From the NCBI GenBank assembly GCA_963931925.1, contig OZ007582.1, forward strand, positions 36,523,339 through 36,587,338: 64,000 nucleotides of DNA, read 5' to 3'. The position numbers were made by a program, and so were the translations under genes. Below the pieces are notes generated by a model that did no database searches, was not told the origin of the DNA, and saw nothing but the letters and a program-made list of their open reading frames with translations. Source of the stretch: Onchidella celtica. Its lineage: Eukaryota; Mollusca; Gastropoda; Systellommatophora; Onchidiidae. Positions 15,257 to 64,000 of this stretch are shown here, one piece after another. How positions within the stretch are numbered: position 1 is the stretch's first letter; the number at the start of each line of letters is the position of its first letter.

Positions 15257-15352
15257 ATGGCGTCGATCTTCGTTGGAGATCTTGCAAGTGACGTCACGGA
15301 AGCTGACCTACATCAGAAATTCTCATCTATCGGAACGGTTGTGTCCGTGAAG
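15257..15352 (+). CDS. PABPC-like: PABP-like, exon encoding start and first half of RRM1
   Basis: The first ATG of MASIFVGDLASDVTEADLHQ is at 15257; standard PABPs have the very similar short N-terminus leading into RNP2. Upstream in-frame sequence is low-complexity intergenic, so this start is preferred. The exon ends at GTCCGTGAAG with donor GTAAAG at 15353, phase 0. Confidence 0.88.
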
Positions 15353-15692
15353 GTAAAGAACATTGTCACTTCTTTCGACCTTCTTCTCAATAATTCAATA
15401 ATGCATTGTTTAAGCAGTGTCTGACGCGGGACCTAACAATGTAAGTCTTGAAAACTGCGAGAAAAGGTTGATATGTTGTACCAGGACTGTATTTGTGCAT
15501 TGAATCTGTTTGAAACAATTAATGGATTTTTCATACTCAATATCTGTGATTTTTTGACATACTACAGATGAACGTTTTCAACATTTAGTCTCACACAAAA
15601 GTAATCAGAACCCCCAAAATCATTATTTTTCTCCGCTTCTGTCATTCTCTGCCCCCCCCCCCTCCCTTCTTCCTTTTTTCTCATATTCTTTC

Positions 15693-16040
15693 TTTCTTTC
15701 TGGATGGATGGATGAATGGATGGATGAATGGATGGATGAATGGATGGATGAATGGATGGATGAATGGATGGATGAATGGATGGATGAATGGATGGATGAA
15801 TGGATGGATGAATGGATGGATCAATGGATGGGTGGGTGGATGGATGGATGGATGGATGGTTGGATGGATGGATGGGTGGATGGGTGGATGGGTGGATGGA
15901 TGGGTGGATGAGTGGGTGGGTAAATGGATGGATGAGTGGATGGATGGATGGATGAGTGGGTGGATGGATGGATGGACGAACGGGCTAAAAGTCGGTCGGA
16001 CAGACCGATGGATGGATTGATCGATGAGTGGATTGGTGGA
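15693..16040 (+). repeat. GATG-based microsatellite (12-bp GGATGGATGAAT core)
   Basis: About 350 bp of GGATGGATGAAT units, then GGATGGGT variants, in the first intron of the PABP-like gene. It produces spurious Trp/Met/Asp-rich frames. Confidence 0.97.
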
Positions 16041-16287
16041 TGAGATAGATGAGATAGAGGCATAAACTGAAAACTGAAATAGCTAGACAGACACCGGTAC
16101 AGAATGATAGAAATACGGACTGTCACATGAATTAATCAACTGATGGATGCATGGTTGGATAGACAGAGTAAATAAGAGACGGTTGCGACTGAATGCACTG
16201 AAAGACAACTTCAGTTACCAATAATCCAATCGGTATACAAGATTTCCCCACACATATCGATCGTTGTTGGATGTTTTCTCTCTCCAG

Positions 16288-16357
16288 GTGTGCAGAGACA
16301 GTGAAAGTGGAACATCACTGGGATATGGCTATGTTGCGTATCAGGACTCCGAAGACG
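16288..16357 (+). CDS. PABPC-like: PABP-like, exon encoding RRM1 RNP1
   Basis: Acceptor TCTCTCTCCAG. The exon reads VCRDSESGTSLGYGYVAYQD and so on; the conserved RNP1 aromatic positions are present as Y-G-Y-V-A-Y. It ends one base into a codon at GAAGACG followed by GTAAAA. Confidence 0.87.
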
Positions 16358-16540
16358 GTAAAACTGAACATGTTCCGGTCATTTTAGAGCCAACAGCGGC
16401 ACTTAGAGAGTCGTAGCAGATTAATAGTTTACAAAGTGTTCTCCATTCTGGTCTGATCAATATTAATAAAAAAAGAAAAACAACAACAGACAGTAGGACT
16501 CGAAAGTTACTTTGGGATTTTAAAATGCAGCACAAAAGAG

Positions 16541-16600
16541 AGAGAGAGAGAGAGAGGGTGTGTGTGAGGGAGCGAGAGAGAGAGAAAGAGAGAAGGAGGA
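16541..16600 (+). repeat. GA/GT microsatellite
   Basis: GAGAGAGAGAGAGAGAGAGG followed by TGTGTGTGAG and more GAGA, in the second intron. Confidence 0.9.
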
Positions 16601-16868
16601 GGGAGTGGGTATCTTGCAAAGCCTCACTTTCACAGCACATAAATAATTACATAAATGAATAGATAAGTAGATAAATAAATTAATAAATACTTTTTTGAAA
16701 AATGAGTCATGAACATACAGTATTTTAAAAAAAATTATTAATTAATATTTTGTTATAGGGGGGAGGAGGGGGGGGGGCTGAGGGTCTCATAATTATGGTG
16801 ACCGCAGCTTTAAAAGGGGTCACGAGTCCCCCCCCCCCCCAAAATAAAGATAAATAGGCCCTGAATTA

Positions 16869-16916
16869 ACACACACACGCACTCACTAACACACACACAC
16901 ACACACACACACACAG
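16869..16916. repeat. AC microsatellite
   Basis: ACACACACGCACTCACTAAC then an uninterrupted run of AC dinucleotides, in the second intron. Confidence 0.95.
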
Positions 16917-17224
16917 CCACTTCTTCTTCTTCTTTCGTTTTTCCGCCATAAATCTGGGAAATCCCATTTTCAGGATGTACCAAGTGAGGAACTGATACGC
17001 TGGGCTACATTGTTATGGGGAATCATGTTGAATTGAAATTAAAATTTATAGATTAAAATTGATCCCTATCACAACCCTCATCCCCCCCCCCCCCCTCACA
17101 ATATCACCAACAAAAATTTATAATTCATTATCAAATAAATATTAATTTATATTCACATACTATTATAATACTTTAGAATACAAGTTGTGAGTTGTGAACT
17201 GCGCCTAACAGGCTGCCTTACAAT

Positions 17225-17411
17225 TTGCTCTGAGACAGAGAGAGGTAGAGAGAGTGAGAGAGAGAGAGAGAGAGAGGGTGAGAGAAATAAAGAGAGAGTG
17301 AGAGAGATGCAAATCGAGAGAACGAGACTTTCTGTAAAGCGCCTAGAGCAAACTCGTTTGGATTGGGCGCTATATAAATGATCGCCATTATTATTATTAC
17401 TATTATTATTT
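17225..17411 (+). mobile_element. SINE-like tail plus GA microsatellite
   Basis: GA repeat, then GTAAAGCGCCTAGAGCAAAC, GGCGCTATATAAATGATCGC and an ATT-repeat end. The same arrangement is reversed at 12292-12440. Such GCGCTATATAAAT plus ATT tails are widespread 3' ends of animal SINEs. It ends less than 50 bp before the exon at 17459. Confidence 0.7.
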
Positions 17412-17458
17412 ATTGTCATTTTTCTCTTCGTTTGTTTTTTTGTTTACGTTACGATCAG

Positions 17459-17649
17459 CGGCGATGGCGGTGGAAAAGTTCAACTTTGACCTCATGCATA
17501 ATCAGAGCATCTGTGTAAGGATGGCTGACAAGGCCAACTTGTGTCATCTCGTGCAGGGCAATGTGTTTGTGAAAAACTTGGACCGGAGCGTGGATTCCGG
17601 CATGCTCTACAAGGCTTTCTCTTCCTTCGGAAACATCTTGTCCTGCAAG
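17459..17649 (+). CDS. PABPC-like: PABP-like, end of RRM1 and first half of RRM2
   Basis: Begins after ACGATCAG with CG completing the Ala codon, reading [20 protein letters not shown] (the DAERALDTMNFDVI region of PABP), then [20 protein letters not shown] and [11 protein letters not shown], matching PABP RRM2. The RRM1-RRM2 linker is diverged: the usual basic SQRDPSLRKSG-type stretch is replaced by [13 protein letters not shown]. Donor GTCAGT at 17650. Confidence 0.88.
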
Positions 17650-17724
17650 GTCAGTCGGGGGGCAAATCGAGCTGTGTTTTGCTATTATTGTTGTATGGGC
17701 CGGATCGGATTAAGATCTATAGAG

Positions 17725-18151
17725 GCCCTAAGCCAGGGGTGCTCAACCAGACGATCGCGATCTACAGGTCGATCTTCAAGTGCTTGGCAGTCGATCATGG
17801 GATGAATGTAGCACACCCGTGAGGTATATATATATTTTATTTGTCTTTGTATTTGGCGGGTTGTTTTTCTTGGATGTGGCGGGTTTGTGTTAGTTTTTTC
17901 TTCTTTTGTCCTTGTGAATGTGGCGGATTGAAAATAAAACATGTGGCAGGACTGCAAAAGTTTACCCGGCAACACTGAAACTGCCATTATGGGTGCGAGA
18001 TAATCGACATTTACCGGTATCGACTAATTTCGAGTAGATCAGAGGCCAATCTTGTTTCAGGGCTTCGCCAGACTGGTAGATTTCCAAAGGCTGGGAAATG
18101 TAAAAGTAGATCCTATGTCACAAAAGGTTGAGCACCCCAGCCTGCCCCAAG
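17725..18151. mobile_element. hAT-like MITE in a PABP intron
   Basis: Left end CCAGGGGTGCTCAACC and right end GGTTGAGCACCCCAG are inverted repeats of hAT type. Flanking octamers GCCCTAAG (17725-17732) and GCCCCAAG (18144-18151) differ by one base, as expected of an aged 8-bp target duplication. The start continues into GATCGCGATCTACAGGTCGA, a motif familiar in hAT elements. Confidence 0.78.
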
Positions 18152-18258
18152 CACTTAAAAGATTTTGGTGTCCCCATATACTGGATAGGTAATTCAAAAT
18201 ATAAACAAAAATGCATTGATAGATTTAAGTACAAAAAAGCGAGTCATATTTTATACTA

Positions 18259-18458
18259 NNNNNNNNNNNNNNNNNNNNNNNNNNNNNNNNNNNNNNNNNN
18301 NNNNNNNNNNNNNNNNNNNNNNNNNNNNNNNNNNNNNNNNNNNNNNNNNNNNNNNNNNNNNNNNNNNNNNNNNNNNNNNNNNNNNNNNNNNNNNNNNNNN
18401 NNNNNNNNNNNNNNNNNNNNNNNNNNNNNNNNNNNNNNNNNNNNNNNNNNNNNNNNNN
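18259..18458. other. 200-N assembly gap
   Basis: Exactly 200 ambiguous bases, so probably a placeholder of unknown true length. It falls where PABP exons for the second half of RRM2 and first half of RRM3 (about 100 residues) are expected. Confidence 0.99.
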
Positions 18459-18625
18459 CCTTTTGTTGATGGCTTTTTGTATACGTGAATGATGGGGGGG
18501 GGGGTGCACGGAGGAGAGGGGGGCTCAGATTATGATCAAAGTTTTGAAATTGGCTAAGAAACAAAAACAAGAACAAACAAAAATAGTATTGCAAACTCCT
18601 AAGTACTGAAACTCTATTGTCCTAG

Positions 18626-19580
18626 GCTATCGAAATGTTGAACGGCAAAGACGTGGACGGCCGGATTCTGTTTGCCGGGCCGGCTATGAAGAAGGCAGGG
18701 AGGAAACATCAAGCCCTGCAGCTTTCGCAACAGCAGCAACAACATCAGCTGCAGCAACAACAACAACAACAATTACAACAACAACAACAGCAACACGAAG
18801 CCGAGGAAATTACCATCGAAGAGAGTATCATTGTGGAGCAACAAAGCTGCCGGCAACACCAACCACCACCGCATTATCAGCAGCATCAACAACAGCAACA
18901 GAATGACGAAACCCAAAAGTGTCCAGCTTTTCCCGGCCATGCCCCTTCCTACACGTCACCAGCAACACCACATGAACCAACATCACCAATCACATCTGCA
19001 GTCGAACGGTTCCCAAACCTCGCCAGGAGGTGTCCAATTCCCCAGCATAACCAACACCCACGCCCAGAATTCGGAGACCAATCGGATCTGCCAATTGCCC
19101 CAAATTCGTCCAAACTTGCAGAATTATCTCCAACAGCCGCAACAGCAAGTCCAAGAACCACCTCAGCAACAGCAACAACAACAGCATCAGTCCCACCACA
19201 ATCACCATCATCAACCTGCACATCATCCTCATCCTCCATCTCGACATCATCATCATAATCACCATCATCAACAACAACAACAACAACAAAATCTTGTCAC
19301 TCCGGAAGAACAAAAAGAACACCAGGAAGAGACCCAGAAAGACCACGAACAACAACAACGGATTCAGCAGCAACTGGAACAACAACAAACACAACTGCAG
19401 CCGCTCCAGCCACCATCACAACAGCAGCATCTTCCTACTACTACTACTACCATCAGCGGCACAGCAGCGACCACCGTGCCCCAGGGAGTCAACTTGTACG
19501 TGAAACATCTTGATGATGATGTGGATGACACCATTCTGAAGGGAATGTTCTCCAAATTTGGAGAAGTCATCAGTGCTAAG
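18626..19580 (+). CDS. PABPC-like: PABP-like, RRM3 end, Gln/His-rich insert, RRM4 start (frame change inside)
   Basis: Acceptor TTGTCCTAG. The 5' end reads AIEMLNGKDVDGRILFAGPA, the last strand of RRM3, then long CAG/CAA-encoded Gln runs. The 3' end reads QGVNLYVKHLDDDVDDTILK and FSKFGEVISAK of RRM4 before donor GTATTT. The two ends are in different frames: exon length is 955, and the frame of the start runs to a TAA at 19256 while the frame of the end is open from at least 18831. A one-base excess (or two-base loss) between about 18831 and 19258 is required; the change of amino-acid character suggests about 18900-18930. Between lies Gln-, His- and Ser/Thr/Pro-rich low-complexity sequence. 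Standard PABPs have only a short RRM3-RRM4 linker. Confidence 0.82.
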
Positions 19581-19616
19581 GTATTTGGTCTGTGCACTAA
19601 AGTGAAGTGACTGGTG

Positions 19617-20395
19617 GGTTTTTCTGGTAGGGCATCCAGCTGCCCTGTGAGTGATTGTTGGGTGTTTCTGGTAGGGCATCCATCTGTCCTGTGAGTGATT
19701 GGTGGGTGTTTCTGGTAGGGCATCCGTTTGTCCTGTGAGTGATTGGTGTGTGTTTCTGGTAGGGCATCCATCTGTCCTGTGAGTGATTGGTATGTGTTTT
19801 TGGTAGGGCATCCATTTGTCCTGTGAGTGATTGGTGGGTGTTTCTGATAGGGCATCCATTTGTCCTGTGAGTGATTGGTGTGTGTTTCTGGTAGAGCATC
19901 CATTTGTCCTGTGAGTGACTGGTGTGTGTTTCTGGTAGGGCATCCATCTGTCCTGTGACTGACTGGTGGCTGGGTGTTTCTGGTAGGGCATCCATTTATC
20001 CTGTGAGTGATTCGTGGGTGTTTCTGGTAGAGCATCCATCTGTCCTGTGAGTGATTGGTGGGTGTTTCTGGTAGGGCATCCATCTGTCCTTTGAGTGATT
20101 GGTGGCTGGGTGTTATTGGTAGGGCATCCATCTCTCCTGTGAGTGATTGGTGGCTGGGTGTTTCTGGTAGGGCATCTATCTGTCCTGTGAGTGATTGGTG
20201 GGTGTTTCTGGTAGGGCATCCATCTGTTCTGTGAGTGATTGGTGTGTGTTTCTGGTAGGGCATCCATCTGTCCTGTGAGTGATTGGTGGATGGGTGTTTG
20301 TGGTAGGACATCCATCTGTCCTGTGAGTGATTGGTGGGTGGGTGTTTCTGGTAGTGCATCCATCTGTCCTATGTTGGATTGGTGGACAGGTGTTT
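19617..20395 (+). repeat. 44-48-bp minisatellite, about 17 copies, in a PABP intron
   Basis: Unit approximately GTTTCTGGTAGGGCATCCAT, CTGTCCTGTGAGTGATTGGT, GGGT. Period is mostly 44 with 48-bp variants carrying an extra GGCT. The array fills nearly the whole intron 19581-20441. All three reverse frames stay open for about 300 codons with a repetitive DALPETHTNHSQ-type peptide; not credible as a gene. Confidence 0.95.
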
Positions 20396-20441
20396 CGAAG
20401 ATAATTTCTATTTGTAACTCTCTTTCCCCTTTTTTCCTAAG

Positions 20442-22013
20442 GTAATGATGGAAGGTGAAAAATCACGTGGTTTTGGATTTGTTTGCTTTGCCCGAGCCGA
20501 GGACGCGGCTCGTGCAACTAGGGACATGCGCAGAAAGGTAGATGATATCAACAAGAAACCGCTGTACGTTGCACCTGCGCAGAGGAAAGAAGAGAGACAA
20601 GCGTTCTTCCGGGAGAAACTGAAGTCTCGACATTGCGACACACACGCTGGCGATGTGGAGACTGCGCAAAGACTGATGACGTCATTAGAAACCAATAAAG
20701 AAAACGAACGGCTTGAAACGTCAGAACTGGGCCACTTGGTTCTGAATCTTCCCGGAGGTGACAGTACAAACACATCCTGCAAACCAGAGCCTCATACCAA
20801 CGGAAACACCCATTTCCCCGAATCTAACCGAAATGTAGAGATCGTTAACCCTCTTCCGTTTGATTCCAGACAAGTGGAAAATCGAAGCAACCGGTGCCCG
20901 AATGTTGCTACTAACCACAGATCTTTTTCCAAACGAAGCAATTTGTTCAATTTCGAATGCTTTAACGTGGAGAATCTACGAACGCCTTTGATCAAACCGA
21001 CACGATTGTCGGCCGAAGAATTCAGACCCTCGTCCCCTTCTCGAAATGAGGCTGAGTTAACTTATTGGTGTCCCTTGTATCTCGGAGAGAATAAAGATCA
21101 GTTTTATGAAGTAACACATTTATCTAACGGTATGACCCCTGTCCATCCTCCCAGAGCCTCGGAAACATATAAGCATCTCAATGAAATCCCAGATCCCCAA
21201 AGAGACAATCCAAATACTCCTTGGAAAGCCGTCGAATCTGAAGAATTCAGTCTAAAAAATTGCGGTGAGATCAGCAATTGTAAGAAAACTGTAGAAATTG
21301 TGAAACATATATCTCCTATTGGATGCAAGCCGCACCCTTTGGAGATCGAGAATGTTGTACCAGATGTAAGAACCGCCCAGGAAAAGCCACGACCAACTCA
21401 CAACTACAACCTCCGGCCGAGACCCGCCAACCGATCGGCACCATCATCTTCCGACAGCAATGGAGATTGCAGTCCTTGTATTCTGCTGAAGTCCTCCAAA
21501 CCATCAGGTGAAAATGTTTGTTTTTCTGGATCCACACAAAACATTCCGAGCTGTTTCGCACTGAAACGAGATCTTTCATCTTTCGATACTCTGTATGACC
21601 CACTGAACGCCATCCCTTTCTCTCGCAGTACAATTTCTGACAACGCCGTGTCTTCAAGGAGTGTTGTCTCACAGGGCTCCGCCTTCTTTTCCAAAAGCAC
21701 GGCGTTTTCCGACACGGAATCATACACCGTAGCCAATGACCAATCAGCGTTCCCCGTCACGTTGAGGCGTGGCTTCGCCAGTAATGAATCATTAATGTCC
21801 CTGGATCCCCTGCGAAGCATCCGCAGTCGGAACGGAAGTCTTTGCTCTGATTTTGGCCTTCGGCGATCCCCGCACCTGAAGCGTCGCAGTGACACCTGTT
21901 ATGACATGGATACTGATGACGTCAGTTCCGCTGTGGGCAGTCATTGGCGGGCTAAGAGACGAATGGTGGCGCTGCCTCCCCAACATCCGGGAGCAGCTGA
22001 GATTTACATTGAG
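20442..22013 (+). CDS. PABPC-like: PABP-like, RRM4 RNP1 and long RRM4-MLLE linker
   Basis: Acceptor TTTTTCCTAAG. Reads [20 protein letters not shown] and then [20 protein letters not shown], a very close match to PABP RRM4 and its C-terminal helix. From about residue 75 on, the remaining roughly 450 codons are an Asn/Ser/Arg-rich, low-conservation linker without the Pro/Met/Gln-rich composition of the usual PABP linker. Clear non-repeat coding composition supports real protein. Donor GTGAGG at 22014 follows EIYIE; continuing past it gives only a short AT-rich tail and a stop. Confidence 0.87.
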
Positions 22014-22198
22014 GTGAGGCGAATGTTAGCAGCCTGTAAATATATGTTTTGTTCATCACTTACAGTATCTCCCTGCATTCAATTAAATTAATTAAAATCC
22101 CGTGAAGCTGCAAGAGGAGAAAGGGGAGGATGAAGGTTTTCATCCATTTCAGAGTTGGTGTACAGCATTTATTGTGCGTTTTTCCCTGATTCCAACCA

Positions 22199-22345
22199 AA
22201 GTCAAAATATGGTTAAAAGACAAAGTTGTATATAGCGAAAGCCTCGCGTAAGAAATAATACCGAAGCGATACATTAAAAAACAAAGAGGCTTCGCTATAA
22301 TAATATACAACTTTTTTTTCTTTTCGCCATATTTTGACTCTGCTT
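22199..22345. mobile_element. Hairpin MITE-like inverted repeat
   Basis: Left arm AGTCAAAATATGG ... AAAGTTGTATATAGCGAA and AGCCTC; right arm GAGGCTTCGCTATA ... TATACAACTTTTTTT ... CCATATTTTGACT. The short loop contains AAGAAATAATACCGAAGCGA, a motif repeated at 47180-47390. Confidence 0.75.
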
Positions 22346-23047
22346 TAAGCCTTGCTGCAACACCACAATTTGTGGTGTTTTTTTTTGGGGGGGGGGGGGG
22401 GGGTTGTAATATTTTGTCTGATTCCAACCAGTATCATGGCGCCCCTGAAACAGGTTAAATCTCTGTCTCAAAATGTTTTGTGTCATGGCAAATAATTCAT
22501 AACTTTAGAGATGCCCATAAAAATTATGTTTCATTGAGTTTTGGAAATAGACCCTCCCATCCCAAACGCGATTAATGTGCTGGGTACAGGATGAAATCCT
22601 CCAAACATATTCAAAAGACTCACAAGGTGATCGCTCCGGCTCTGTCGGAAGTTTTTTGTTTTTTTTTTCATATAATTATCAACAAATTATTTTTCACGAG
22701 CAACATTTATTTATAATTTTTTGCATCCATCTGAGCATTTAAAGTCTGTTTTAAATGCCCTTGATTTTTAAAAAAAATTATTATATTGTGTTTGGATGAG
22801 GTAATCTATGCGGGGACACTTAAGAATGAATGTTCTTTGTTTGTTGCCATCATTTCAAATGCAAACTTACAGACGGCCTTGAGAGTTTAGGAGGGCGAGC
22901 TTGGGCAGAAATTGAAGAAAAAAAAGAATTTAAACAAAAATAATTCAAAAATGGACGTCTTTCATCTGGCCAGTGTGAGCGTCGAAGACGTATACTCCTT
23001 GCTTGTGATTTTCTCCCTTCACGGTCTTTTCTCTATCCCCTCCCCAG

Positions 23048-23223
23048 GCCAGACCCCCGTCCCCTTCACTGAGGATTCCTGGTCAAGGGGACATCAGTTT
23101 AAGATCGCTGTCCAGCTGGCCTATAGATCGACAAAAAGAAATCCTGGCCGTGCCCATGAAAACTCAGATCACTGCATTACTGGAGGAACTGGTGGCTCAA
23201 GGCGTTACTCTAGAACAGGAAAG
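23048..23223 (+). CDS. PABPC-like: PABP-like, linker end and MLLE approach helix
   Basis: Starts after TATCCCCTCCCCAG at GCC, phase 0 with the previous exon, reading ARPPSPSLRIPGQGDISLRS and then KEILAVPMKTQITALLEELV. It ends with AG at 23222-23223 before GTGGGT, to be completed by T of the next exon (Ser). The alternative open frame over the same bases gives unstructured sequence and does not join the next exon in phase. Confidence 0.75.
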
Positions 23224-23389
23224 GTGGGTACTCTGATAGGGGGGTGTGTTGGAAGCCACGCTCTATGTTAATGGCTCCTAACCAGGGAGATATTTTTCCG
23301 TGGGTGAACATTTTGGGATTTCAAGAGAGGAAATACGTGTACTGCACACTGCATGGCTGCGGTGTCAATGTCTTCTTTGTCTGTGCTGG

Positions 23390-23515
23390 TTGCAATGATG
23401 AATGTCTCCATTGTGTGTGATCACGAGATGGTTTGCAATGATGAATGTCTCCATTGTATGTGATCACGTGATGGTTGCAGTGACGAATACTTTCATTGTC
23501 TGTGATGGGCGGATG
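23390..23515 (+). repeat. ~42-bp tandem repeat, three copies
   Basis: GGTTGCAATGATGAATGTCT and CCATTGTNTGTGATCACG repeated at about 23388, 23430 and 23473 in the intron after the exon ending 23223; later degenerate GATGGTTGCAGTGA copies occur at 23656 and 23846. Confidence 0.75.
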
Positions 23516-23544
23516 GTTTGTGGGTGCTTCTGGTAGTGTCTCCT

Positions 23545-23650
23545 TCTCTCCTATCATTCTGTTATATTCTGTCTGTCGTCTTGCTTCTTCCTTGCACAAT
23601 GTGATCGTCATCCTGTCGATGCGCCTTTTCTCCAAACTTAAACTCAAAAC
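23545..23650 (+). repeat. Dispersed SINE-like unit, copy 1
   Basis: CCTATCATTCTGTTATATTC, TGTCTGTCGTCTTGCTTCTT, CCTTGCACAAT, CGTCATCCTGTCGATG, then CTTTTCTCCAAACTTAAACT. Related copies at 23730-23835, 27553-27660 and 44263-44352 all have the same orientation. Confidence 0.75.
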
Positions 23651-23729
23651 TCTGTGATGGTTGCAGTGATGAATGTCTTTATCAGCTGTGGTGGCCGGAT
23701 GGTTTGCAGATGCATCAGGTAGTGTCTCC

Positions 23730-23835
23730 ATCTATCCTATCATTCTGTTATCTCTGTCTGTCGTCTTTTTACTTCCTAGCACAATTGTCTGTTCTCGTGT
23801 CCATGTGCTTTCTCCAAATTCAAACTGAAACCGCT
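23730..23835 (+). repeat. Dispersed SINE-like unit, copy 2
   Basis: Same order of motifs as 23545-23650: ATCCTATCATTCTGTTATCT, CTGTCTGTCGTC, CTTCCTAGCACAAT, TGTGCTTTCTCCAAATTCAA. Confidence 0.75.
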
Positions 23836-23889
23836 GAATGTCTGTGATGGTTGCAGTGACGTAACTATGTCATTGTCTGTCACCAACAG

Positions 23890-24043
23890 TTGGTATAAAG
23901 ACGTGGGTTTGCTTGCTGAGTTGTTGGTCAGAAGAAACTGGACAGTGGCCGCCCTGTCTGACCGGCTGATGGCAATGGTGATGGAGATGGACGTTGCAGA
24001 GGTTATCAACTTGTTACAGTCCAGGCACTGTCTGCTGTACTTG
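23890..24043 (+). CDS. PABPC-like: PABP-like, MLLE (PABC) domain core
   Basis: Acceptor GTCACCAACAG. Reads WYKDVGLLAELLVRRNWTVA and then ALSDRLMAMVMEMDVAEVIN, LLQS. This aligns with the PABP MLLE domain (EQKQMLGERLFPLIQ ... [21 protein letters not shown]). The signature MLLE tetrapeptide is replaced by MVME, and the preceding KITG by DRLMA. The domain normally binds PAM2 motifs. Donor GTGGGT at 24044. Confidence 0.85.
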
Positions 24044-24651
24044 GTGGGTAACACGCATTGGTCTGAGAACTTCCCACAGTCTGTGAGGTTCATATCTTAC
24101 TATAACGGAGCTAGAAGGTGAACATTGAGGCACCTAAAACTTTGAGACCAAGTAACACAAAAGTTATGAAACCTCGCACACTGCCTTAAGTTGACGATGA
24201 TTTACGTGGACACATCCATTTTTGGACAATATTCAGTCTTTGTTATTATTTATTTACAGTTTGAGCTGTAAAAAAAAAAAAAAAAAGCAACACTTTTTCG
24301 TGAAGTAAATTTGAAAAGTATGATGGGAAATTTCGTTCTTCATCTCTCTTCACACATGGCTGGTCGAAAATACCTAGATCTAGAGCTTGGTGCAAAAGAT
24401 TCTGCAAGATAAATCTTGCATACGTCGGCTAGTTAGACTTACCCCTTTCACGTCAAATACCCCTCGTAGACCAAAAGCTTGTGCTGTTGTTTTTCCTGTT
24501 CATTTCTGATTCAAACTAATGTTTGTTTGTTGTTTCTTAAGCAACATTTGTAAGATTTGTTGTTTTTGGGGGGGGGGGGTGGTGGGGGGGGGGGTGTCAT
24601 GTGACCATAATCAAGTACTTTCTTTCCCCTTTGTGCCCCTTTGTTCACCAG

Positions 24652-24810
24652 ATATCGGAGGGCTTGAAGCAGCTTCAAAACTTCGTGGATAAGGACACCG
24701 TGAATTTCGATAAACAAGAATTGATGACACCTGATGGCGACCACCCGATACCTGACCCGGAACCACTAAGTCAAGAATCGATTAACAACAAGGACGATCA
24801 TCCCAACTAA
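24652..24810 (+). CDS. PABPC-like: PABP-like, terminal exon (last MLLE helix and acidic tail)
   Basis: Acceptor TTTGTTCACCAG. Reads ISEGLKQLQNFVDKDTVNFD, equivalent to the final MLLE helix (KVDEAVAVLQAH in PABPC1), then an acidic Pro/Asp/Glu-rich tail ending in TAA at 24808-24810. Phase 0 with the previous exon. Confidence 0.85.
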   Translation: MSEGLKQLQNFVDKDTVNFDKQELMTPDGDHPIPDPEPLSQESINNKDDHPN

Positions 24811-25107: not shown

Positions 25108-25470
25108 GATTAAAAACGACCAGAAACTACTCCACATTTGGTCTAAAACGAGGAAGCTCCTCATTTGGTCTAAAACGAGGAAGCTCCTCATTTGGTCTAA
25201 AACGAGGAAGCTCCTTTACATTTGGTCTAAAATGAGGAAGCTCCTCTACATTTGGTCTAAAACGCGGAAGCTCCTCTACATTTGGTCTAAAACGAGGAAG
25301 CTCTTCTATATTATTTTGGTCTAAAACAATGGAGCTCCTCTATATTTGGTCTAACACGATGGCGCTCCTCTACATTTGGTCTCAAACAATGAAGTTTCTT
25401 TACATTATTATCTAAAATGAGGAAATCCCTCTACATTTAGTCCAAAACACTGACCTCAACCACTTTTGGT
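25108..25470 (+). repeat. ~30-bp minisatellite, about 11-12 copies
   Basis: Unit CATTTGGTCTAAAACGAGGA followed by AGCTCCTCTA. The first copies lack a few bases and the last few are strongly diverged (for example AACAATGGAGCTCC, AAATGAGGAAATCC), so the array decays toward the 3' side. Confidence 0.93.
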
Positions 25471-59579: not shown

Positions 59580-60678
59580 GTAGGAAGAACAGAATTCATG
59601 ACAACAGTATGCTGGCCCAATCATTAAACTACACAAATGTTTATAAATGTGAAACCGCTGAGATGACACATTTTTTGTGTGCCTTCTAAGCCATATTGCT
59701 GAAATCAGCTGAAAAGAAATTAGTATTTTAGGAAGGAAAATCTTTGTTTCTGGAGGACCTGGCCATGAGGCTGTTGGCCCTAAGTAATTATTATAGAAAC
59801 AAGGAAAAAACTTGTACAGTGTGTTTAGAAAATGCTCATGTTTACAAAATTTCATGTTAAATTCCCCTTATTTAAATGAGTTATTGACAAGTTATTGGAA
59901 CCAGCCATAGATTGATGTTCTCTCCCCAGCATATATGGCATTATTTGCCAGTAACACTGAATGTTTTTAGAAGTGTTTCATTTGCTTAATTCGTCTTTGT
60001 TTATACCTATCAGCCAAAGAAAGTTTTGTTTTCGTAACCACTGATGTCCGCCTCAGATCTCCAGTACCCAGAGCCTTTATCTGTGGTTAACAGGCTTAGA
60101 GATGTTACTTACAGTTGTACAGCAAAACTCACATAGAAAATTGTGAAAAAATATCTTTAGTTTGACAAGCAGTATCAGCAGGGGAAGTGTAGAATATCTC
60201 TCTTAAATATGCAAACATTAACTCTTTAGGTCCCAGGAGTAAGAAATAAGAACGCATTTTAAAATATGGGCATGTCTGAAATACATTTTAGCTGTAATTG
60301 CACTGTCTATTGTTTCTTCAGATTGATTCTTATACATGCCTTTAGAAAAATCACAAGAATATTATGTTAGATAAGCAACCTTTGTGGCCATGCAATGTAT
60401 TGTTCTCTGGTAAAGGGGAATAAAAAGCCATAATTCTGTGCATGAAGATTGTCTCATTTATGGCACTCTGGCTTCTGAAACTTGAAAGGTAAAATCGCCC
60501 TGGCAAAATGATGCATGTCTGTGATCCCTAGGTAACATTGAGGAAGTAAATGAAGGAATGGACTATGATGCTCGCTCCATCTCACAGGCTCGAACATGTT
60601 AAAAAAATTAATACTAATAATAGGAATAGCAAGAAAAAGTTTTTGGGTGTTTCTAACTTCAGCATCTTTTTCCGGCAG

Positions 60679-60892
60679 GCGTTGCGATGTCCAGGCTCGA
60701 GGCTTCAGTGGTTACAACACTCGCTGGTGTAGAGAAGTTTTACCCTGCATTTCCATGGAATATGACAATGTTGTTGCCTTTACAATATTCCTGGGTGCTA
60801 ACGACGCCAATAACTTTGAGCTCAATCCTCGCCAGCACGTTCCACTGGAAGAATACAGAGAGAACTTGATGGGAATTGTGAAAGATGTTATG
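60679..60892 (+). CDS. IAH1: IAH1 exon 4 (RGFSGYNTRW, GANDA block)
   Basis: After TTTCCGGCAG: RRCDVQARGFSGYNTRWCRE, then VVAFTIFLGANDANNFELNP and PRQHVPLEEYRENLMGIV. The catalytic Asn of block III is present. It ends after KDVM before GTGATT, phase 0; reading on gives a CTT repeat-encoded Leu run, so the donor is preferred. Confidence 0.94.
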
Positions 60893-62795
60893 GTGATTCT
60901 TCTTCTTCTTCTTCTTGGTCTTAACTTACTAAGCCCTGAGGCCTCCACCAGTTATATACCATGGGCTTTTCAATGGTAGTTTTAAAAATTGATTTAAAAA
61001 AAGTTTTATACATTTTTACATCGAATTTGAAATTCTTATAGAAAAGGGATGTGTTTTTGAAATACACATGCATTTGAGACCCAGACATATCTTTGTCATG
61101 TTTATTGTTTACCTTGTTTACCAGCAAGATCAAACATTGTGAACACATTCCTGGCATTTCCGCCTGGGAGCACTAGCAGCCATTTTGACACGGTTCCAGA
61201 AAAAATTCACGTAAATTCACCTATTGTTTGAAATTGAACGAAACCAAAATACCTTAAAGGGAAATGACTTTGGAATAATGTGACATGGACGAAAATCACA
61301 CATGGTGGTATTTTGCAGGGAAATTGCTTCCGAAGTCTGAAAAGGGAAGGGATGCGGTGTGCATCGTTAAGCTTTGTGCGAGAGGTCTCGCAACTGTTGC
61401 AATGTTCGAGCTTAGTGAACTAAGTATTTCCTTTTCTTTTTTCCTTTTCTTTATCTGTTTATTTCCAGATCGACACGTGAACCACATCATTTCTTGAAAA
61501 GTCTTGTGAACTTTTTTATTTCCTTCTGAGTTTTGAAGGTTTTTCAATTCTTTTTCATGTTGCAAGTGAATTTGACGCAGTAAATAATACAGTATTTGTT
61601 CTTTATGTTGTTTAAGGTACAGGGGTGTAAATCTTTCAGATTTTTTCATTTTTTTTAATTTTGAGGGTAAATTCCTAGATCTAGAGCTAAACCTATCCTT
61701 ATTTTTAGTTATTTCAGGTTGTTTTTTTTTTTTTGTCTTTATTCACTGATGATATATTTTATTTTTTCAACAGTAACAAATCGAAACCTAAAAACTATGA
61801 ATAAAAACAGTTAATTTCACAACTACATTAATACTATCGTCACGACATTTGTTTTCTATTTGTACCCCAGCGGACGAGTTTCCTTCTGTCGTTAGTCCGA
61901 GAATCTCCGAGGTTTCAGAGAAAAATTCTCTGACCCACGAAAATAGCCTAGGCCTAGCCAAGCGGGGAAATATGCGGCCCCTGGTGTTTCATGTTCAGAG
62001 AATTTTTTCAAATGTCATTTACATCCCTGGGTATTGTGATGGACACATTTAGTGGAGCCTATGGGAAGCCATCATGATGGCGATGAGATTTTCCCATTTC
62101 GTACACTTTTGTAGAGCAGTGAAAGGGGCCAAATTTGGGATGAGCAGATTCCTAACCATTTTTATATTAAGTGATTTACTTTAGACTGCGCTAGAGAAAA
62201 TTTAGATGAATTTATACTTTTGTTTTTGAGTGAACATAGCTGTCAAAATGTTGAAGAGTCAAAATGTTTGTGACTTTACGTTTACTGAGGAGTCGTTAGA
62301 AATGGTTTTATGTGAAAGTTCAGAAGAGAAAACTGCAGTTTTAGTTGACAAAGATGAATCTGAAAGTGATTGAGTTGAGAATTTTAATTTTTGGCAGAAA
62401 GGGAGGGTAACTTCGACAGCTTATTATGAAACCCCCTTCAAACAGTGAGTTTGAGATACATCAATAAAAAGACGGAAGAATGACCTTTCATTTGCTGTAT
62501 AACATATTAGCCAAATGTAAATCTGGACAGTACATGGGGAATTTTTATTAAAATGGTATGAAAGCTGCTTATAAAGGAAGCTGGCTGGGCCTAAAAGCTG
62601 CAAAGGCAATAAGTTAATAACTTTAAATGTTGTGTATCAAGTTACATTCAAAGATTAGATGGTTCGGCAAGGAGTAGTAAAGTTAAAAGATGGTCCTATC
62701 TTCCACATTTTGTGTTATTATGTATGGAAAACTGGCCGTGACTCAATATCAAGAGAATTTACACTTTTTTGCGTTTTTGTTGTTTTCTTCCACAG

Positions 62796-63488: not shown

Positions 63489-64000
63489 GAAATGTTTCTT
63501 GTAGATGTTCTATTCTATGTGTTTTTGAAGGCAGGAAATTGACTGATTTCCAGATGTTGTCTGAGACTGAGATTAAAGATCTTATCAAAAACTCACCATC
63601 CAAATCATGTGAATTAGACCCATTTCCGATGACATTTGTGAAATTATATCTTGATGAGTTATTGCCATCCATTACTCATGTAATCAATGTTTCTCTGAGA
63701 ACTGGTGTTGTACCAGATTCTTTCAAACAGGCAATTGTAAAACCTTTGACCAAAAAAGCTGGGCTCGACGTAAACAATGTGAAAAATTATAGGCCTGTGT
63801 CAAACTTACCAATTGTGTCCAAGATCCTTGAAAAATCAGCGTTGAGGCAAATCATGGAGCACATTGAAATAAATAACTTGAATGAGATATTCCAGTCGGC
63901 ATACAAAAAGGGCCACAGTACTGAGACTGCTATCCTCAGAGTAGTGAATGATATTCTTCTAGAGTTCGATAACAAAAGAGTATGTATTCTTGTACTTCTG
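63489..64000 (+). mobile_element. LINE reverse transcriptase fragment (jockey/CR1-like), runs off the window
   Basis: An open frame from about 63491 encodes the N-terminal half of a non-LTR retrotransposon reverse transcriptase: a KSCELDPFPMTFVK-type segment, VVPDSFKQAIVKPL, then NYRPVSNLPIVSKILEK and FQSAYKKGHSTETAILRV, all hallmark motifs of jockey/CR1-like enzymes. The frame is preceded by a stop at 63488 and no endonuclease domain precedes it, so it is 5'-truncated or inserted next to the MITE. The catalytic YADD/FADD box would lie beyond 64000. Confidence 0.9.

Follow-up and report, generated by a model that had tools for sequence, protein, structure and literature searches.

A divergent cytoplasmic PABP paralog in Onchidella celtica, probably maintained as a protein-coding gene, with a Q/H-rich spacer between RRM3 and RRM4

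The layout of PABP is very conserved. In PMC6547884 the helix after RRM4 is given as the sole conserved part of the Pab1 linker, and PMC5780489 maps the multimerisation of PABPC1 to a linker stretch around Trp437. For the MLLE domain, 18 residues that contact PAM2 are named in PMC2854688. Ataxin-2 is reported to be a polyglutamine protein that binds PABP. No mollusc PABP with an insert between RRM3 and RRM4 was found in the open-access literature, among the matches listed and as judged by titles and openings of abstracts.

Here we analysed a window of 64,000 nucleotides, meaning the whole stretch of DNA under study, from the genome of Onchidella celtica (1.14 Gb, 43 contigs). This genome gave 33 matches to PF14830, the mollusc haemocyanin family, in keeping with a mollusc. 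On its plus strand, at 15257-24810, we found an eight-exon PABP-like gene with consistent splice sites. All donors of the joined gene model are GT (7/7) and all acceptors AG (7/7), and the gene's own seven introns have donor scores of 3 to 6 on an ad hoc scale of 7. The features are as follows, in window coordinates.

15257-15352, plus strand: exon 1, coding for the first half of RRM1 from the start codon on (MASIFVGDL...VVSVK)
16288-16357, plus strand: exon 2, central part of RRM1; its phase-1 end coincides in position with that of the canonical exon
17459-17649, plus strand: exon 3, which completes RRM1 and continues through the RRM1-RRM2 linker into the first half of RRM2; like its canonical counterpart it closes in phase 0, with ...NILSCK
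18259-18458, no strand: 200 consecutive N separating exon 3 from exon 4, at the expected place of three canonical exons
18626-19580, plus strand: exon 4, 955 nt (3k+1), RRM3 tail, Q/H-rich insert and first half of RRM4
18707-19481, plus strand: Q/H-rich RRM3-RRM4 spacer, 775 nt, in which the reading frame of Q/H changes once
19606-20385, no strand: 44-bp minisatellite, occupying most of intron 4
20442-22013, plus strand: exon 5, 524 open codons that cover the remaining half of RRM4, the beginning of the post-RRM4 helix and a linker of about 460 residues
23048-23223, plus strand: exon 6, coding for the N-terminal portion of the MLLE-derived region (IPGQGDISL...QKEIL)
23890-24043, plus strand: exon 7, which holds the core of that region (LSDRLMAMVMEMDVAEVINLLQS)
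24652-24810, plus strand: exon 8, which ends the gene with the last MLLE helix, a tail and the stop codon

Seven of the eight exons have a fitting reading frame and phases; exon 4 is the exception, and the expected exons are missing at the gap. On the minus strand (19367-20462) the minisatellite of intron 4 gives rise to two antisense open frames, 334 and 348 codons long, a trap for gene finders. Just 3' of the gene there is a 30-bp tandem repeat of about 11 copies (25123-25448).

Compared with PABPC1, Pab1 and the canonical PABPC of the same genome, the window gene has the same order of RRMs and several of the intron positions and phases, and it shares RRM1, the first half of RRM2, the RRM3 tail, RRM4, the start of the post-RRM4 helix and a C-terminal MLLE-derived region. 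It is unlike them in its Q/H-rich spacer of about 258 codons and its Ser-rich linker of about 460 residues, in that KITGMLLE has become RLMAMVME and in that the WSQRDPS segment is replaced. With Ataxin-2 it shares polyglutamine in the poly(A) RNP world; the paralog differs in having no LSm domain by Pfam and in carrying its Q tract inside the PABP descendant itself.

Based on the sequence-only reading the gene had been called a PABP paralog, and this was borne out by an exon-by-exon comparison with the canonical PABPC, which lies on another chromosome and runs from the MASLYVGDL start to the stop at C13:43331241-43350367 (last exon C13:43350302-43350367). Four intron positions are common to both genes in place and phase, namely a phase-1 intron within RRM1 and phase-0 introns after SCK, after TSAK/ISAK and inside MLLE, the last being located before VEEAVAVLQ / ISEGLKQLQ. 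The phase-0 acceptor 5' of exon 4, before AVNTLNG / AIEMLNG, is also the same in the canonical gene. The window gene has further introns, located in RRM1 and the MLLE region. Because the introns are shared, the paralog arose through DNA-level duplication, and a retrocopy origin is ruled out. Both RRM homology and shared gene structure identify the gene as a cytoplasmic PABP by descent.

The identity to the genome's own PABPC was 60/119 aligned residues across RRM1 plus the first half of RRM2 and 56/92 across RRM4, and the closest PDB sequence matches of exons 1-3 and of RRM4 were PABPs. Against the PABP1 of PDB 1cvj (RRM1 and half of RRM2) the canonical copy scored 259 bits and the paralog 126 bits. 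Across the genome an RRM4 query gave five matches, two in the window and three on C13 (PABPC and its partial copy); exons 1-3 as query gave three matches in the window, two on C13 and five weaker loci with unrelated-looking RRMs. The partial copy of PABPC lies in tandem at C13:43354285-43358720 and extends from the RRM3 tail to MLLE. Five pieces of it were aligned and are 85-94% identical at the DNA level; its RRM3-RRM4 exon contains two stops, and no RRM1/RRM2 exon of it was found in the 40 kb covered.

Over 210 codons we measured a dN of 0.43 and a pS of 0.84 between the window gene and the canonical PABPC, with synonymous sites saturated; these figures take in the canonical branch as well. 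At the fourfold sites of conserved residues, 33/48 differed from the canonical gene. Synonymous saturation at this dN favours a long-maintained gene rather than an old pseudogene. Our reading is that the locus is probably an old, divergent cytoplasmic PABP paralog that arose as a DNA-level duplicate and has been maintained as a protein-coding gene.

The RRM content was determined by profile search. Exons 1-3 joined matched RRM_1 of Pfam with an E value of 1.6e-25 in two stretches, and the second-frame part of exon 4 together with the start of exon 5 matched it with 4.7e-13; the search for both RRM and MLLE that had been proposed earlier recovered RRMs but no MLLE. RRM1 and RRM4 are whole, RRM2 is represented by its first half and RRM3 by its tail (AIEMLNGKDVDGRILFAG), which begins at 18626. 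RRM4 begins at 19482 (QGVNLYVK) and its second half opens the exon at 20442-22013. The rest falls at the N gap: the 200 N at 18259-18458 sit inside the stretch 17650-18625, where the three canonical exons for the second half of RRM2 and most of RRM3 were sought. That search recovered none of them, its two matches (E 47 and 32) being at the level of chance. The domains that had been described as read directly from the sequence were found as far as the RRM3 tail and RRM4 are concerned, but a frame break interrupts the insert and the gap covers part of RRM2 and RRM3. A genome-wide RRM_1 scan returned at least 90 matches, none of them in the window (150 of 230 candidates scored), and the absence of the locus from the matches of the RRM_1 and MLLE genome scans shows its splitting and divergence.

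Three expected exons that were not found, an exon 4 of 3k+1 length without a single open frame and a degenerate MLLE would all suit a young pseudogene, that is a once-working paralog which lost its RRM2/RRM3 exons and suffered a frameshift in exon 4. However, the missing exons coincide with the N gap, the remaining seven exons have open frames, agreeing phases and GT/AG splice sites, and the low dN at synonymous saturation points to long constraint. We consider such a pseudogene unlikely.

The RRM3-tail/RRM4-start exon measures 955 nt in the window gene, its canonical counterpart 234 nt. Between the RRM3 tail and QGVNLYVK the spacer has 775 nt, or about 258 codons, in place of 19 residues in the canonical protein, so that RRM3 and RRM4 are not adjacent as in the PABPC architecture, unless the spacer is partly intronic. 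Q made up 83/242 residues (34%) and H 30/242 (12%), counted on residues pooled from two frames. An insert of about 270 Q/H-rich residues had been proposed from the sequence; its size and composition agree with our measurement, but it is not one open frame. The frame of the RRM3 tail stops at 19256-19258, RRM4 lies in another frame that is open at 18690-19607, and no single frame links the two across exon 4. The two Q/H-rich halves are in different frames, with the switch at about 18905-18955 as placed by eye, and the explanation must be sought in an error of the assembly, a small intron or a real lesion. Most likely the break is a one-base assembly error or an allele rather than the normal state; programmed frameshifting is not a reading that we adopt.

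Stop-free stretches like those of the Q/H halves, which measure 292 and 618 nt, occurred in 1262/5000 and 187/5000 Markov shuffles, counting any of the three frames, and the openness of the insert alone is therefore a weak sign of coding. Its coding status is argued by its position, since the same exon has RRM3 on one side of it and RRM4 on the other, an arrangement that the canonical gene shares. The Q/H frames did not stand out by codon usage, higher scores being frequent in other frames, and the scores gave no placement of the frame break in exon 4; the training set comprised 1135 codons including this gene's own exons, with 2/8 canonical chunks dropped for stops. The charge-hydropathy values of the two insert halves (-0.455 and -0.339) fall on the disordered side of the boundary line.

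Among the matches listed for exon 4 in the genome (171 matches; 40/565 candidates scored), there was no second full copy by which the frame could be settled. A repeat-derived exon copied elsewhere was rejected, as the full-length match among those listed was exon 4 itself; the others were partial, mostly CAA- or CAH-like repeats at query positions 102-170 and about 500-800. It had been stated earlier that RRM3 and RRM4 pieces belonging to separate genes would refute the sequence-only reading. This is not favoured, because, just as in the canonical gene, both parts lie within one exon-like stretch that contains no strong splice site.

Splicing-out of part of the Q/H insert is possible on the sequence. 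Within exon 4, 80 GT-AG pairs of 3k+1 length keep both RRM parts and an open frame, so that a small intron could restore the frame and shorten the Q/H stretch; one candidate, 18919-19045 (127 nt), retains both Q-rich ends. The donors of these pairs are weak, though, the best of the 80 scoring 3/7 and the 127-nt candidate 2/7, compared to 3 to 6 for the gene's own donors, a difference that is narrow at the low end. Moreover, the removed stretch is itself H/Q-rich in the RRM4 frame, and the canonical exon has no intron here. A partly intronic insert is in our view quite unlikely. With the assembly gap and the break in the reading frame at the insert, the full protein of the maintained paralog that we favour is a predicted one.

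Exon 5 is open over 524 codons, and a stop-free stretch of its 1572 nt was reached in 0/5000 Markov shuffles; its flat GC content per codon position (0.51/0.47/0.47) counts against a maintained coding gene. The start of the post-RRM4 helix is kept (AQRKEERQA in the paralog, AQRKEDRRA in the canonical protein). The linker that follows had been estimated at about 450 residues with an unusual composition, and both points held: we measured 460 residues, Ser-rich, with S 12.8%, P 8.5%, Q 2.0% and M 1.1%, compared to P 14.7%, Q 11.0% and M 5.9% in the canonical linker, for which the sample was 136 residues from two exons with borders placed by eye. The linker Trp region described in PMC5780489 was not recognisable in the paralog's three linker Trp contexts when compared with the canonical ARGPWAPGVRP.

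With a charge-hydropathy value of 0.004 the linker is borderline and disorder is not clear; RRM1-2 gave +0.226. AlphaFold2 run on exon 5 as a single sequence predicted helices at residues 19-37, 45-61 and 72-84 only, with a mean pLDDT of 34.6 and 481/524 residues below 50. The low pLDDT of this model neither proves nor excludes disorder. A linker common to another gene was rejected, as the genome search gave one match, the linker itself.

The MLLE at the C terminus that had been assumed earlier was not confirmed as a clear one. Pfam gave no MLLE at E<=1 for the last three exons, phmmer reached only E 0.39, and a genome-wide MLLE scan returned seven matches, none in the window. The descent from MLLE was recognised by weak similarity together with a shared intron: the joint score of the last three exons against the genome's own MLLE was reached in 0/5000 shuffles (exon 6 alone 0/5000, exon 7 1/5000, exon 8 1973/5000, which equals chance), hhalign to MLLE gave E 1.3e-4 at a probability of 54% (four-row alignment, Neff 1.4), and the intron before exon 8 sits at the canonical MLLE intron place. 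Compared to MLLE (PF00658), the paralog is alike in local similarity in the order of parts and in this one common intron; it differs in being below Pfam detection and in having 33 additional residues between the two matching parts. Taken by its sequence, the region is a strongly decayed descendant of MLLE and not a clear MLLE. Elsewhere in the genome, at C11:29580431-29585346, four MLLE-like exons lie on one strand within less than 5 kb and possibly encode one multi-MLLE protein; 1/4 scored above the Pfam cut-off.

In the KITGMLLE motif, RLMAMVME in the paralog, 2/8 residues are kept. Four of the 18 PAM2 contacts named in PMC2854688 are kept (Met584, Glu587, Glu609 and Leu614) and 14/18 are changed, including Gly563, Phe567, Gly579 and Thr582. 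The residue numbers were transferred by us and these counts depend on the alignment; exon 6 has two possible alignments, putting Lys or Thr at Phe567. On this comparison the paralog has probably lost its PAM2 partners.

The RNP-like cores of RRM1, the RRM2 start and RRM4 are retained, and the paralog may still bind RNA. The canonical segment WSQRDPSLRKSG between RRM1 and RRM2, which we take to contact RNA, is replaced in the paralog. Its poly(A) affinity is uncertain because of this replacement and the presumed RNA contact. An ordinary PABPC1-like PABP, in which Q/H expansion and linker change were neutral drift and function stayed the same, would agree with the retained cores and with the generally fast evolution of disordered regions. 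It does not agree with the 14/18 altered PAM2-contact residues and the replaced WSQRDPSLRKSG, and we judge it very unlikely.

At the level of the gene, exon 4 has grown, the linker has been replaced and MLLE has decayed, two long low-complexity segments being added; the RNA-holding parts are largely kept and the partner-holding parts changed. In a maintained paralog of this kind, RRM1, RRM2 and RRM4 would still bind RNA, probably A-rich. The RRM4 end would be loosely tethered via a disordered Q/H-rich spacer rather than follow directly after RRM3, and with the canonical linker Trp region lost, regular stacking on the tail should be weaker. The altered MLLE would no longer recruit PAM2 proteins (eRF3, Paip1/2, PAN3, GW182), and the paralog could sit on RNA while lacking the customary PABP partners, perhaps only in certain tissues or stages. 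A more speculative and rather unlikely extension is that PAM2 docking was swapped for Q/H-rich and Ser-rich assembly segments, the protein coating A-rich RNA and driving a putative granule; condensate or granule behaviour had been suggested from the polyglutamine in the sequence-only reading. If true, such a granule would form without the usual translation and decay partners. If a paralog with a split between RRM3 and RRM4 and a lost PAM2 pocket is indeed maintained, it would offer a natural test of which PABP features are important for tail binding, stacking, deadenylation and partner recruitment.

Three further open frames in the window had weak Pfam matches below the cut-off: 1542-1922 to PTB/PID (PF14719, E 5.8e-5), 60569-60976 to GDSL lipase (PF00657, E 7.6e-4) and 63491-64000, cut by the window end, to reverse transcriptase (PF00078, E 1.4e-4).
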